Program-made: the position numbers and the translations under genes
Assembly (NCBI GenBank): GCA_945882415.1
Contig: CAMCWC010000021.1
Span: 1-40,182, forward strand
DNA length: 40,182 nt
Source of the DNA: Chthonomonas calidirosea
GTDB taxonomy: Bacteria > Armatimonadota > Fimbriimonadia > Fimbriimonadales > Fimbriimonadaceae
Direction of reading: 5' to 3'
Notes under the pieces: generated by a model
Told to the model about the DNA's origin: nothing
What the model saw: only the letters and a program-made list of their open reading frames with translations
Database searches by the model: none
Shown: positions 3,617 to 9,026 of the stretch, in pieces
Position numbering within the stretch: position 1 is the stretch's first letter
Layout: each line of letters begins with the position of its first letter

Positions 3617-6187
3617 TTAGGCATCGCGCTGCTTATACGCCTTAAGCCAATCAACTACTTCGTCTAAATCAGCCTTTAATTCATCCGGGCCTGGAACTTC
3701 GATCGGCGTTTCAAACGGTTGGCTATGTTCATAGTACGAGTATTTTGTCATATATTTTTGAACCAGCTGACAGTCTTCCTTGGTAATTTTTGCGAGCAGA
3801 TCAATTTTGCCCTTGGTATGGATATCTCGACGATAGCGCTGAATTACATCTGCCAAAAGGACGATCTCCACGATACGCTCAATCAGGATCCTAAAATCAG
3901 TACAAATTGCTCTTGCGAGCGGGTAATAGGATTCAGAGTCTTTATCCTCAAACAGCACTTTTCTGGCCTGAGCTAACCGCCGATCCCTCAGATCATTCAA
4001 GGATTTCTCGGGATTTTTTGCAAAGATTGGCACTTCAGCCGGCTGTCCAGTTCCCCAGACCTCTTGTCGCACGGCAATAACGTTGGGGTCCACTTTGTCT
4101 CCCACGATTTTGACAAAACTCAATCGATGGGTCATTACAATGACTTGGCGTTCAGAACTTAAATCGATCAAGCGGTCGATCGTCTTCTCTTCATAATCCT
4201 GATCCAGGGAAGAGATTGGGTCATCGAAGATGAATGGAGCCTTGGTCGGATTCGCCGTGACCGAAGCAAGAAACGCCGCTAGGCTAACTATCCGCTGTTC
4301 ACCTTCGCTTAAAATTTCGCCAGCCTTGTGCTTGTTCGTTCCCTTCAATTGGACTCTATGCTTTACCTGTGCGCGATCCACTCTACGCTTGATCAATTCA
4401 ACTTGAATGCGACCAGCTCCAAGCCGCCGCAACTCCGAATTAAATCTATTCACGTAAGCCTCCGTAATCAGTGCCTCTGACAGTTCACTCGCCTTCCTCG
4501 AAATGCCCGTCGTAGTAGTCTGCTTAGTCCACTCAGTAATCTGAGCTATCAACCCGAGTCGATTAATTTCAGCGTCGATCGCTCTTGCCTGCCCCGCGGT
4601 CCAATACTTCGCTTCAAGCTCTAGAATATCTGTCGTTGTTTTCGTTCCGTCGCAGATCTTGGCGTCCTCCTCGTATTTCAGAGCGTCGGCTTCTGCCGAG
4701 ATCGAAAGTGCATTCAAATGTGCTAGCAATGGACACTCGATGATGTCGATGCCTTCTGGCTTCACTTCCAGTGGGTCGATTCGGAGCAAATTGATGACGG
4801 ACTGGATGTTGCTCCATGCCCTCTTGAGTTGCTCTTCGACATCTTGAGCCAGTCCCGCAGCCTGACATGATGTACCCAATGCTTCCTGATTCGGAATTTC
4901 AGGAAGGGCGTCTAAACGTTGCTTTACTGAGGTTTCAGCTTCTTTCGCAAGAGTCTCTAGTGTCCCCGTGACGAAGCATTCAAAGTCCACAAAGCGTTGC
5001 TTTGATGCTCCATCAAGGTCTTGTTGACAGAGGACGCATTTGGCTCCTTCCTCGATATTTGGAAAAGGCTTTTCCGGGTACACCTCGCCAACGGAAAATG
5101 CTCGGGCGGCTTCCCAAAGAGCTTTCCAGGTCTTTCTCCCAACCCCATCCAAAAGAACGCTGCTAGTGAGTGCTGCTGTTCCTTCGGTCGCAGTTTTGCG
5201 GGCGGCCACGGCCGCCACAGAGAGATCAAAAATCTCTCCACACTTTATCGATGTAACTGCGGCGCGCGCTACCGCTAATTTACTCATTAAGATATTTATT
5301 TGTAATTTTAATGCTCTGCGTTTTTTCGCTTCCTCTGCAGGATTTGTGACGGTTCTCTTGGCATTGAGTTTCTTGAGATTTTCCTTGTCGTCTTCAGTCC
5401 AAGGGTAGAGCGCCGAAAGCTCCGTTCCCGCTATTTTTGCTGACAGCGAAGCGAAAAGTTTTCCGGCTCTTGTCTCTTGAAATGCTGAGGGTAGCGCTGG
5501 CAGTGCTTTCGGTAGAGCGTTTTTTTCGGCGGCAAAGACTACTTCGACACGCTTAGATATCTCAACGAGATCAGAAAAGAAAACGAGTTCCGCTGGACTA
5601 AAAGAAACCTCCGTGTCCGAGTCGAGATAGAGACGACCACTAGCCGAATCAAAGATATCCACTGACTGAAGCTCGGGGATTGGGATGGAATTCACGGCCC
5701 ACTTTCTAGATATTAAGACTCCAGCTGACTCGAAGGCAATAGTGCAGCTTCTATCGGGTGGCTCGTCTTCAAACACATTTGCTCTTAGCTCGGGTGCGCC
5801 TGCTTTTCCACAAGCTCTCTTCAGTATCCTTGCGTATCCCGATTTACCGGAGCCGTTATTCCCATAGATCACAGTCAGATTTCCAGTCGGAAACGTGAGT
5901 GGTCGCCTGGGTGCAAGCTTGTCAACGCCAACAATATCTCCTACCGACGCTAGGCGTAAGGCTGCTGTGCTTCCTCCGCCAACTGCAAACGCTGGATACT
6001 TCCTTGGAGCGGGTTTGGGTGCCTTCGTAGTTGCGACTGGGGTCTTGATAATCGCAACAAGATCAGCAATGTCAATATCGTCTACGGCCCCCTTGGTGAG
6101 AAGCCTTGAAGCAGCCTCTTGTAACCAGAGATGCTGGCTGTTAAGCCAATCTGAAATTACCTTGTTCATGTCTTTTGAGCCTTCCAT
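3617..6187 (-). CDS. AAA_13 family SMC/ABC-type ATPase (PrrC/RloC-like)
   Basis: An 856-residue ATPase. Walker A is GNNGSGKS (109-116), the ABC signature LSEGEQ is near 626, Walker B is FIFDDPISSLD (652-662) and the H-loop histidine is H687. The middle is a long charged helical region with a CVLC (384-387), similar in layout to the zinc hook of Rad50 and RloC. The C-terminal ~90 residues contain RILIE (R766, E770), RYRRDIH and H821. In PrrC/RloC anticodon nucleases an RxxxE plus a downstream His forms the active site, so an RNase-type C-terminus is possible but unproven. The start has a strong GGAGG five bases upstream and directly follows the TGA of the DUF2130 gene, implying translational coupling. 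A role in phage defence is inference from family and context. Confidence 0.85.
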   Translation of the reverse strand: MEGSKDMNKVISDWLNSQHLWLQEAASRLLTKGAVDDIDIADLVAIIKTPVATTKAPKPAPRKYPAFAVGGGSTAALRLASVGDIVGVDKLAPRRPLTFPTGNLTVIYGNNGSGKSGYARILKRACGKAGAPELRANVFEDEPPDRSCTIAFESAGVLISRKWAVNSIPIPELQSVDIFDSASGRLYLDSDTEVSFSPAELVFFSDLVEISKRVEVVFAAEKNALPKALPALPSAFQETRAGKLFASLSAKIAGTELSALYPWTEDDKENLKKLNAKRTVTNPAEEAKKRRALKLQINILMSKLAVARAAVTSIKCGEIFDLSVAAVAARKTATEGTAALTSSVLLDGVGRKTWKALWEAARAFSVGEVYPEKPFPNIEEGAKCVLCQQDLDGASKQRFVDFECFVTGTLETLAKEAETSVKQRLDALPEIPNQEALGTSCQAAGLAQDVEEQLKRAWSNIQSVINLLRIDPLEVKPEGIDIIECPLLAHLNALSISAEADALKYEEDAKICDGTKTTTDILELEAKYWTAGQARAIDAEINRLGLIAQITEWTKQTTTTGISRKASELSEALITEAYVNRFNSELRRLGAGRIQVELIKRRVDRAQVKHRVQLKGTNKHKAGEILSEGEQRIVSLAAFLASVTANPTKAPFIFDDPISSLDQDYEEKTIDRLIDLSSERQVIVMTHRLSFVKIVGDKVDPNVIAVRQEVWGTGQPAEVPIFAKNPEKSLNDLRDRRLAQARKVLFEDKDSESYYPLARAICTDFRILIERIVEIVLLADVIQRYRRDIHTKGKIDLLAKITKEDCQLVQKYMTKYSYYEHSQPFETPIEVPGPDELKADLDEVVDWLKAYKQRDA

Positions 6188-7459
6188 TCAATCCTCCGCT
6201 CCGTCGGACTCTTCTGCCGGCTCAAATCCGGGCAATTCAGGCATTTCGCTTCCTGCGATACCCTTTAAGTCACCCTGAAGCCCAGCCACACTGGCAAGAA
6301 CGCGCTCAATCCTCCGTTCTTGCCTTCGCCAACGGGATTGCGTGGTCCGCTTTTCCGCCAGCAGCTCGTCATGCAGTTCCCTAAACGGCAGAGCAATCCC
6401 TTCAAGAATCGCGCGGAATTCGTTTCCGATCATATAGGCATAAAGCCGCTCCATCTTCGACTCCTTGCCTTCTGCGCCTTGCCTAGCGTCGGCGGTCGAT
6501 ATGATGCCTTGTCGTAGCGCGATTCCAAGGACCACGGAATGAGCCTGCCGCGTCACCCAAACGCCTTCATATGGCCCGAAGTCTTGAATGCCCTTTGGTA
6601 GAACCTCGCTCACGATAATGGCGACCTCCGCCCGAGCTTCGGTCGCGTCCTGCTTGGCTTTCCCCGCCCAATCGCCACCCCAAGACTGTGCTCGTTTGGT
6701 CTCCCAGAAAATCGTTCCGACTGGCCGGCCCATCTGCCCGAGAACCCTCTGCAGAACATCACCCCCTCTAGCTCCGGTCTTTACCGGTTCGACTAAATCT
6801 TGCGGGAAGAACTGTCGGAGCGTGGCCTCGAAGTCCAACTCAAGGACTTCACCTTGCATCTGCTGTGAACCTTGAGTCGCTTTGCGTTGCGCCTCCTCAA
6901 GTTTCGCCTGCATATCTGCAATCGTCTTCTCCCTCTCTGCAATGGGGAGTCGCGCTTTCTCCTCCGCGTCCTTTATCGCTTGTTCCTGAATCGCCTTTCG
7001 TTGCTCATCAACCTTTCGTGCCACCTCCAGATCGAGCGCTTTCGACCTCTGCTCCAACTCATCCCGTTGCTGCCTAAGTGCCAGTTCTGCCTGTTGCGAG
7101 GTTTGAAGCTGGGCAGCCAGATCTAACGCTTTCTTCTTTTCTGCTTCTAGCTCGGGTGCCAGTTCCTTGCGAATGTTCTCGCGCTCGGATTGGGCAATCA
7201 ACTGTCGCTCGGCAGCAATGGCTTGATTGACCGCGCTCTGGATCGACGCCTCGCGGTCCGCAAGTTCCTTCTCTTTTGTCGCTATTTCCGCTTCCTTCGC
7301 GGCTACCGCACCAATCTTCTCTTCTGCTTCTCGTCTGGAGGCACTGACAAGTTTGCTTGCCTCGGCTCGCACTTGGGCAATCATCGGCCCGGCTAGTGTT
7401 TCATCCAGCGGGAACGACTCACCGCAATTCGGGCAACTGATGATTAACTTGTCTTGCAT
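6188..7459 (-). CDS. DUF2130 coiled-coil protein, putative nuclease
   Basis: A 423-residue protein matching the DUF2130 family by its layout. A CPNC knuckle lies at residues 9-12, followed by long alanine/glutamate/lysine-rich coiled coil (about 25-200), then a globular domain (about 203-365). The globular part shows E207 and D209, RGGDVLQ (D234) and FWETK (E253, K255), spaced like a PD-(D/E)XK nuclease core, followed by a W-G-G-D-W segment. RmuC-type and restriction-like nucleases have a similar coiled-coil plus nuclease build; nuclease activity is inferred. It is the first gene of a two-gene operon, its stop codon touching the start of the AAA_13 ATPase gene, which suggests the two products act together. 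Confidence 0.8.
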   Translation of the reverse strand: MQDKLIISCPNCGESFPLDETLAGPMIAQVRAEASKLVSASRREAEEKIGAVAAKEAEIATKEKELADREASIQSAVNQAIAAERQLIAQSERENIRKELAPELEAEKKKALDLAAQLQTSQQAELALRQQRDELEQRSKALDLEVARKVDEQRKAIQEQAIKDAEEKARLPIAEREKTIADMQAKLEEAQRKATQGSQQMQGEVLELDFEATLRQFFPQDLVEPVKTGARGGDVLQRVLGQMGRPVGTIFWETKRAQSWGGDWAGKAKQDATEARAEVAIIVSEVLPKGIQDFGPYEGVWVTRQAHSVVLGIALRQGIISTADARQGAEGKESKMERLYAYMIGNEFRAILEGIALPFRELHDELLAEKRTTQSRWRRQERRIERVLASVAGLQGDLKGIAGSEMPELPGFEPAEESDGAED

Positions 7460-7603
7460 CGTTATCTCAGCCTGTATCCTATCTGATCGTTACCTGTTTT
7501 GTCTACGACTTTTCAATCTTATTGCTAAGGTTTCGGGTCGGAGTCAAATCTCATCCCCAAAAATCCATAGTTGACTTTTTCCCTCCCAACGGCCTGACAA
7601 GGT

Positions 7604-8587
7604 ATGCGACCCATTTTCCTTGAGCGTGCCGGAGAACCAAAGCAGTACGGAACGAAAGACGAGCCCGACTGGCTCGTCCCCAACCTCATCCCCACCCAGG
7701 GCATGGTCGTCCTCGCCAGCGCCCCCAAAGTCGGAAAGACCGTCTTCGCCACTGCCCTTGCCCGCGCCCTATGCCGGGGCGAATCCTTCCTCGGCCATAA
7801 GCTAGAAGCCGCCCCCGTCGTCTGGTGCGCCCACGAAGAATCCCCGCGAGAACGCGTGCCCCTCCACGCCGGACTGACCCCCGAAGACCCGTTCTACATC
7901 GGCTACCGACGCGGAATCCCGCGCCTCGACGACCCCGATTGCTTCCTAAACCAGCCCAAATACGAACCCGACAAAGACCGAACCCACTACGTCTATGTCG
8001 AAGCCATGAAGCTCGGCGCAAAGCTCGTCGTCATCGACTGCCTCCAAGCCGCCGTCGAACGAACCAACCTCGCCGACAACCAATCCGCCCGGCACATCAT
8101 GTCAAAAATCAGCCAGTGGAGCTACTACTTCGGTTGCGCCACCCTCGTCCTGCACCACCTCACCAAAAGCGCGCACCGGGGCTACTACCCCGAGCGCTTC
8201 GCCGATTCCGCCCAAATCCTCGCCACGAGCAGCACGCATCTCTTCTTCGAGAGAATCGGCACCGGAGAAAACCCGCGCCGCTACGCCATCCATGGCCAAG
8301 GCCGCCACCCCGCCCCGCCCGCCCGAGTGGAAGTCGAAAGCCGCGGCTTCTTCGACTGGCGATTAGCCGACGAGACCACCGCCGAACGACCCCAAACCAT
8401 CACCGAACAAATCATGAACTTCCTAAAAGAAGGCCCCGCCACCGCCACCGAAATCTCCGAAGCCCTCGGCCTAAAGCTAGAATCGGTCCGCGTCAACCTC
8501 AGCGTCCTCAGCCGAAAAGGCAAAACCATGCCCCTAAGCACCAACGCACAGTCCAACCCCTACGTCCTCTTAGAAGACCCCGTATGA
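7604..8587 (+). CDS. RepA/AAA_25-like ATPase with C-terminal winged helix
   Basis: A 327-residue RecA-fold ATPase. Walker A is SAPKVGKT (39-46), Walker B LVVID (141-145), and a following LVLHHLTKS (181-189) fits the sensor strand of RepA/DnaB-type ATPases. Residues from about 260 onward look like a winged helix (AATEISEAL-type pattern). Such proteins are replicative helicases of plasmids or mobile elements, or DNA-repair ATPases; the substrate here cannot be told. Codon use is extreme, with C-ending codons and CCC/GCC dominating, unlike the flanking genes. It diverges from the DUF2130 operon across a 144-bp gap with no obvious promoter boxes. The ATG at 7604 has only a weak, very close AAGGT upstream, so the start is uncertain. 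Confidence 0.75.
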   Translation: MRPIFLERAGEPKQYGTKDEPDWLVPNLIPTQGMVVLASAPKVGKTVFATALARALCRGESFLGHKLEAAPVVWCAHEESPRERVPLHAGLTPEDPFYIGYRRGIPRLDDPDCFLNQPKYEPDKDRTHYVYVEAMKLGAKLVVIDCLQAAVERTNLADNQSARHIMSKISQWSYYFGCATLVLHHLTKSAHRGYYPERFADSAQILATSSTHLFFERIGTGENPRRYAIHGQGRHPAPPARVEVESRGFFDWRLADETTAERPQTITEQIMNFLKEGPATATEISEALGLKLESVRVNLSVLSRKGKTMPLSTNAQSNPYVLLEDPV

Positions 8588-8611
8588 AGTAGTTTGAACC
8601 TAGAATGTTGT

Positions 8612-8654
8612 TTAATTAATTAATCTGCCTGGGGGGGGAACGTTAATTAATTAA
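8612..8654. repeat. paired TTAATTAATTAA palindromes
   Basis: Two copies of TTAATTAATTAA (8612-8623 and 8643-8654), each itself palindromic, flank a 19-bp segment with a run of eight G (8631-8638). They lie just after the stop codon of the RepA-like gene in otherwise GC-rich DNA. They could form a hairpin terminator-like structure, mark a protein-binding site, or be the scar of an insertion. Confidence 0.6.
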
Positions 8655-8689
8655 GCCCCGCCGCTTCCGATTTCCACCACAAAAGGCTC

Positions 8690-8800: not shown

Positions 8801-9026
8801 GCAACTGCTGGCTCGCACAGGTGTCGTCTGACATCCAACTGCGTTTCTGCTCCGATTCTGGCTTAACCATGAGAACTCTTGGTTGAAGAATACCGAGCAC
8901 TGCGCACTAGGACCGCGGTCTCGGTTCCGAGAGCTCGCCGATCCAAAACTATTGTTCTCGCCGGAAAATGCCTTCGATTCTTCAGTCCCGCAAACCCAAT
9001 CCAAAAACTCGGAGTATTTTAAAAGC

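Follow-up and report, generated by a model that had tools for sequence, protein, structure and literature searches.

The locus described here raises the question of why a gene for a predicted nuclease of the DUF2130 family and a gene for an RloC-like ABC/SMC ATPase lie end to end, and whether the two belong to one defence system. It lies in a 40,182-nucleotide stretch of DNA from Chthonomonas calidirosea (assembly GCA_945882415.1, contig CAMCWC010000021.1), hereafter the window. The explanation that we favor, at a probability of roughly 0.55, is that the genes form a two-gene transcription unit in which an RloC-like tRNA-cleaving RNase (tRNase) gene sits behind a modular, partner-swapping DUF2130 gene of the PD-(D/E)XK nuclease kind, and that this unit would act in phage defence. 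As a preliminary description of the DNA had stated, the two open reading frames, both on the minus strand, are coupled stop to start: the TGA of the DUF2130 gene (6188..7459, 423 amino acids), at 6188..6190, abuts the ATG of the ATPase gene (3617..6187, 856 amino acids) at 6187 with a gap of 0 bp. The junction reads GCGGAGGATTGAATGG, with GGAGG 8 nt 5' of the ATPase ATG; in its longer form it reads GGAGG...GATTGAATGG, and the ribosome-binding-like site of the ATPase gene therefore lies inside the end of the DUF2130 gene. Each gene is present in one copy in the source genome.

The DUF2130 protein matches Pfam PF09903 with 169.8 bits against a gathering cut-off of 26.7. It starts with C9-P-x-C12, continues as a long coiled coil (residues ~18-217) into a core (~200-330) and ends in a helical region. 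Among the residues invariant in 28 diverse DUF2130 proteins are C9, P10, C12, G203, E207, G229, G232, D234, E253, K255, R316, Y342, and F348, and in a second set of 25 relatives E207, D234, E253, and K255 were again invariant. The active-site spacing proposed earlier, E207/D209-D234-E253xK255, thus holds for these four residues and fails for D209, which is not conserved. The AlphaFold2 model (pLDDT, the predicted local distance difference test, 80.4 overall and ~90-96 in the core) comprises the coiled coil, an alpha/beta core at 200-330, and further helices. The best PDB match of this model in Foldseek was the Holliday junction resolvase ST1444, at a marginal E of 0.007. Residues 198-330, aligned with VIA-align, gave as top matches mostly PD-(D/E)XK proteins with Z of 7-10 (Tk-TIP26, 10.2; VC1899, 9.7; McrC, 9.2; Hjc, 9.1; Can2, 8.2). 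Because the sequence motifs and the fold agree, DUF2130 is probably a PD-(D/E)XK nuclease, as first suspected, and it would be expected to cleave DNA. With Hjc, McrC, and Can2 it shares the E, D, E-x-K core and the alpha-beta fold over 198-330; unlike them, it has a long N-terminal coiled coil with CxxC and C-terminal helices, and by sequence it matches no nuclease whose structure is known. Apart from chance coiled-coil matches, no sequence relatives of known structure were found. PADLOC holds no model for DUF2130, and we found no function for it in the open literature searched; an earlier fold assignment in the closed literature is possible.

The ATPase matches the PADLOC candidate PDC-S06 (PDLC04893) over its full length (925 bits, residues 7-854) and, in its head, Pfam AAA_13 (66 bits) and SMC_N (45 bits). 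Its ABC motifs, which are split by a coiled coil, are the Walker A GNNGSGKS at 109, LSEGE at 626-630, FDDP at 654-657, SSLD at 659-662, and H687. The coiled coil carries a zinc-hook motif, C384-V-L-C387 (5027..5038, minus strand), and the helical C-terminal domain (residues ~695-856; 3617..4105, minus strand), a predicted HEPN-type anticodon nuclease, carries R766-x3-E770-x50-H821. The CVLC, RxxxE, and H821 to which the preliminary description had drawn attention are all invariant in 11 relatives from plasmids and genomes, together with Walker A, LSEGE, FDDP/SSLD, H687, and R784. In 21 relatives, mostly from viral contigs, the ABC motif residues, both hook cysteines, R766, E770, R784, and H821 were again invariant. 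Four features define RloC (Davidov and Kaufmann 2008, PMC2610378): its ABC head is split, it has a hook of the CxxC type, its C terminus carries R-X3-E-X36-52-H, and it is 658-897 amino acids long. The C termini of RloC and PrrC are HEPN RNases (PMC3710099). The ATPase displays all four of these features, and the ribonuclease layout read from it at the outset is thereby borne out as a prediction from its motifs: it belongs, as an RloC-like protein, to a candidate defence class already known, and its C-terminal domain is predicted to cleave tRNA. The AlphaFold2 model (pLDDT 82.5) comprises an SMC/Rad50 head (Z ~19) and a helical C-terminal domain, and hhalign aligned the protein with RloC-type AAA_13 proteins at 99.5% probability across head and C terminus, with H821 but not R766/E770 on the matching RloC-type residues. 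In place of the HEPN motif R-x4-6-H, the window ATPase has K815-x5-H821; this position is K or R in 11/11 aligned relatives, with longer spacing in three.

The ATPase differs from RloC in several respects. It matches AAA_13 in the head only (66 bits, residues 555-701), whereas RloC-type AAA_13 proteins match over their full length (438-472 bits); its gene abuts a DUF2130 gene; and its activity is predicted. Among the models, only those of PDC-S06 match its C-terminal domain. The PDB matches of its model included no PrrC- or RloC-like folds, a list filled by SMC heads and thus excluding nothing. PrrC itself we rejected as an identity, since PrrC proteins are 341-416 amino acids long without a hook insert and are linked to type I restriction-modification (R-M), whereas the ATPase has 856 amino acids and a hook. 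No hsd genes were recognised around it in the window; only a distant relative sits in an hsd locus. The ATPase also resembles the ABC-HEPN prophage proteins (APECO1_4465 group, PMC3710099) in joining an ABC ATPase to a C-terminal predicted HEPN RNase, a likeness of layout and not one drawn from sequence comparison; the ATPase of the window lies outside any prophage. The label PDC-S06, judging by its name, presumably denotes a single-gene candidate defence system, whereas the ATPase is here the second gene of a pair.

Relatives of the ATPase occur in other company than DUF2130. On viral contigs, single-sequence patterns recovered none of them and an alignment-based query did. No DUF2130 gene was found near the relatives on plasmids and in genomes (26-45% identity) or at 25 viral-contig loci; on a Bradyrhizobium plasmid, one relative and a DUF2130 gene lie ~8 kb apart. 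In the type I R-M locus that holds the distant relative (L140, 3240-12943; loci are numbered L and genomes G), the order is HsdM-HsdS-PDC-S06 ATPase-PrrC-sized AAA_13-HsdR, with the ATPase overlapping HsdS by 4 bp. This one R-M operon contains two putative tRNases. Another relative directly follows PglZ-BrxL, and several lie in P2-like prophages, as read from gene sequences. R-M loci and prophages are the predicted context of ABC-HEPN proteins (PMC3710099). Because relatives without DUF2130 occupy R-M, BrxL, and prophage settings, the ATPase is, by sequence, of a solo defence-type kind. A fixed DUF2130-ATPase two-gene system, as originally proposed, was therefore rejected: relatives of the ATPase that plasmids and viral contigs carry lack DUF2130, and the partner of DUF2130 changes between close relatives.

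These changes of partner came from a sample centred on one phylum, with plasmids and viral contigs added. Within the phylum, 291 genomes yielded 19 DUF2130 loci above the Pfam cut-off. As a partner we counted any gene in the same direction that abuts DUF2130, or almost does, and matches PADLOC at E <= 1e-20, such a match marking a candidate, not a proven, defence gene. Fourteen of the 19 loci have one. The partner is PDC-S06 in the window and L052; OLD/GajA in L055 and L045, and upstream of DUF2130 in the type III R-M loci L041 and L042; SIR2, with a HerA-type gene behind it, in L046 and L051; Ppl in L057; the MBL-fold PDC-M48B in L054; and the 5'-nucleotidase PDC-S08 in L047, L049, L050, and L053, where the L050 assignment comes from its likeness to L047 and L049. 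In a like-for-like comparison (downstream genes, gap <=30 bp, >=150 amino acids), 10/11 genes abutting DUF2130 matched PADLOC against <=4/60 abutting control genes (Fisher p ~2e-8; ~1e-7 with two 5'-nucleotidase loci counted once); the controls came from 20 stretches of 20 kb in five relatives, a whole-genome draw that does not fully remove island clustering. Coupling itself is weakly enriched (11/19 DUF2130 loci versus 35%, p 0.05), and junctions of 0 to -4 bp recur behind DUF2130 with several different partners. Two genes behind DUF2130, in L048 (8934-9683, 249 amino acids) and L056 (10379-10897, 172 amino acids), have no PADLOC match, the former no Pfam match either; they are candidate new effectors.

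The DUF2130 tree joins unlike partners in well-supported sister pairs. One case is the window itself: its sister DUF2130 (L055, ~80% identical) precedes an OLD ATPase in place of an RloC-like one (support 97/91), and DNA similarity between the two loci is limited to DUF2130, beginning and ending inside the gene. A second pair joins SIR2 in L051 with MBL in L054 (96/94), and the 44-row tree requires 20 changes of neighbor type. The GC content at third codon positions (GC3) is 0.48 in the ATPase gene, 0.585 in the DUF2130 gene, and 0.63-0.76 in the flanking genes, and GC3 differences in L057 and L052 point in the same direction. Because of the well-supported sister DUF2130s, the similarity confined to DUF2130, and these GC3 contrasts, the data fit partner replacement. 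In relatives, Gabija, SIR2-HerA, OLD, and Ppl systems take the position that the ATPase holds here, right behind DUF2130, a gene that differs from them in having no PADLOC model. To our knowledge, none of these systems needs a DUF2130 gene. Overall, the partner-swapping association of DUF2130 with defence genes is strong and appears to be unreported in the literature that we searched.

The association extends beyond the phylum. On an Aliarcobacter plasmid, DUF2130 is followed by GajA and GajB (a complete Gabija) and a DNA methyltransferase; in Chryseobacterium it precedes genes for a DNA methyltransferase and for an S subunit; in Bradyrhizobium, SIR2 and HerA-type genes begin 0.6 kb after it; and in L114 it accompanies a type IIG enzyme. 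The exact pair of the window was found solely in the source genome among 151 relatives, and to that extent the adjacency is limited to this lineage; the architecture is not, as DUF2130 with an RloC-type ATPase, of other subfamilies, recurs in L052 and in the viral contig L109, there in one operon with the order type III R-M, DUF2130, RloC-type AAA_13. At L205 (3900-4000), a short L109-like DUF2130 remnant (RAKTEQSETFRKEYDA) separates a type III Res gene from a truncated RloC-type gene; the DUF2130 and RloC-type genes have apparently decayed at a single locus here.

The locus is probably accessory. The nearest syntenic relative (G014) matches only from window position 8958 onward and lacks both genes, and GC3 of the ATPase gene is below that of its flanking genes; accessory status is supported on these two grounds. 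Nearness to a tRNA gene, to which the preliminary description had appealed, carries no weight for a defence role: no copy of >=14 bases of the tRNA-Ser gene (40-127, at the contig edge) was found elsewhere in the window, hence no attachment (att) repeat, and no integrase was recognised in the window. An island integrated at tRNA-Ser is, for the same reasons, not supported. The earlier interpretation thus survives in its nuclease core, its RloC-like layout, and the defence-type company of the genes, now seen in the PADLOC-matching partners, and gives way in its fixed two-gene system and its argument from the tRNA.

We weighed three other explanations. That a solo RloC-like gene and an unrelated DUF2130 gene became neighbors by chance in an accessory-rich region and work independently is possible, if in our judgement somewhat unlikely. 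The solo relatives of the ATPase on plasmids and viral contigs and the restriction of the exact pair to the source genome speak for it, and the unequal GC3 of the two genes suggests separate arrival. Chance would leave unaccounted for, however, the tight junctions that recur with several partners, the similar pairings in other phyla, and the enrichment of defence-type genes, a comparison whose controls represent whole genomes and not defence islands. It is improbable that DUF2130 is a Holliday-junction-resolvase-like nuclease for recombination or replication of a mobile element, with the defence genes as its cargo and the swap a product of recombination at its borders: archaeal Hjc is among the closest folds, phage-like contigs place DUF2130 by replication genes, and the DNA similarity that the window shares with L055 has both of its ends within this gene, but neither direct repeats nor an integrase nor shared flanks were found, and DUF2130 usually stands first in an operon with translationally coupled partners, a coupling that cargo would not require. 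Least probable of all is the version of the preliminary description, with the ATPase in control of the DUF2130 nuclease as part of a dedicated sensor-effector complex comparable to Rad50-Mre11 or SbcCD, for which the Rad50-like head, the 0 bp coupling, the coiled coils in both proteins, and the apparent joint loss at L205 can be cited, but ATPase relatives without DUF2130 retain all motifs and DUF2130 has partners with no SMC-type ATPase (SIR2, MBL, 5'-nucleotidase).

In the reading that we prefer, an RloC-like tRNase gene behind a modular DUF2130 gene, the Rad50-type head and zinc-hook coiled coil of the ATPase would presumably sense DNA breaks or phage takeover, and its C-terminal R/E/H domain would then cut tRNA, leading to a stop in translation and abortive infection. 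DUF2130 would be a coiled-coil protein with a PD-(D/E)XK DNA nuclease and no exclusive tie to the ATPase, serving as a usually promoter-proximal accessory joined to unrelated defence effectors by partner replacement. The products may help each other, for example if DUF2130 processed phage DNA ends while the effector halted translation, and such a joint function is plausible. A bolder version, which we regard as rather doubtful, would make DUF2130 an effector-agnostic immunity component that cooperates with or licenses RloC-like, OLD/Gabija, SIR2-HerA, Ppl/TrlF, MBL, 5'-nucleotidase, and R-M systems, the effectors behind it being replaced as cassettes would be.

What was obtained directly is the gene layout, the families, the conserved motifs, the nuclease fold of the DUF2130 model, and the diversity and enrichment of partners. 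Several points weigh against the preferred reading. It is founded on sequence and models, and phage defence is a prediction. At five of the 19 DUF2130 loci (L043, L044, L048, L056, and L060) no partner was recognised. Most DUF2130 genes on Bradyrhizobium plasmids stand alone, and many Bradyrhizobium copies are either alone or beside toxin-antitoxin genes. On phage-like contigs, DUF2130 often lies beside DNA polymerase A, an Enc34 single-stranded DNA-binding protein, and a PDDEXK_1 nuclease, company that fits a general DNA-processing role. As for the ATPase, no solved structure, those of SMC proteins included, covers its C-terminal 130 residues, and profile-profile alignment sets H821 on the RloC histidine and R766/E770 off the RloC R/E.

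Upstream of DUF2130 in the window lies a divergent AAA_25 gene (7604-8587). This RepA-like gene is part of a repeat (7557-8659) with a second copy in the same genome (G000:C20, L264; 92.6% identical in DNA, 96% in protein), which adjoins a gene reading like coaX and behind which another serine-protease-like gene begins. A further copy occurs in the nearest relative (G014:C5, L263), and the gene behind differs for each copy. Downstream of the ATPase come a trypsin-like protease gene (1588-2733) of low GC (GC3 0.45) and then tRNA-Ser. The DNA that separates the protease gene from the contig edge contains, at 609-1411, several diverged direct repeats of ~130-280 bp (81-89% identical), also present near the end of G014:C5. 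Two imperfect GC-rich 59-bp repeats (139-262) directly follow the tRNA-Ser gene, and a small MNT-type nucleotidyltransferase gene (NTP_transf_2, 208-558) has no recognised adjoining HEPN partner.

DUF2130 has so far been without an assigned role; with its fold, an active site that is invariant, and a place that recurs before unrelated defence genes, it becomes a candidate accessory nuclease that can be tested. Should a single DUF2130 gene serve many effectors, it could be used as bait for new defence genes, the unrecognised genes behind it being candidates, and systems at present counted as having one or two genes would sometimes carry an overlooked helper. Overall, the positions of DUF2130 suggest a mix-and-match accessory of bacterial immunity.

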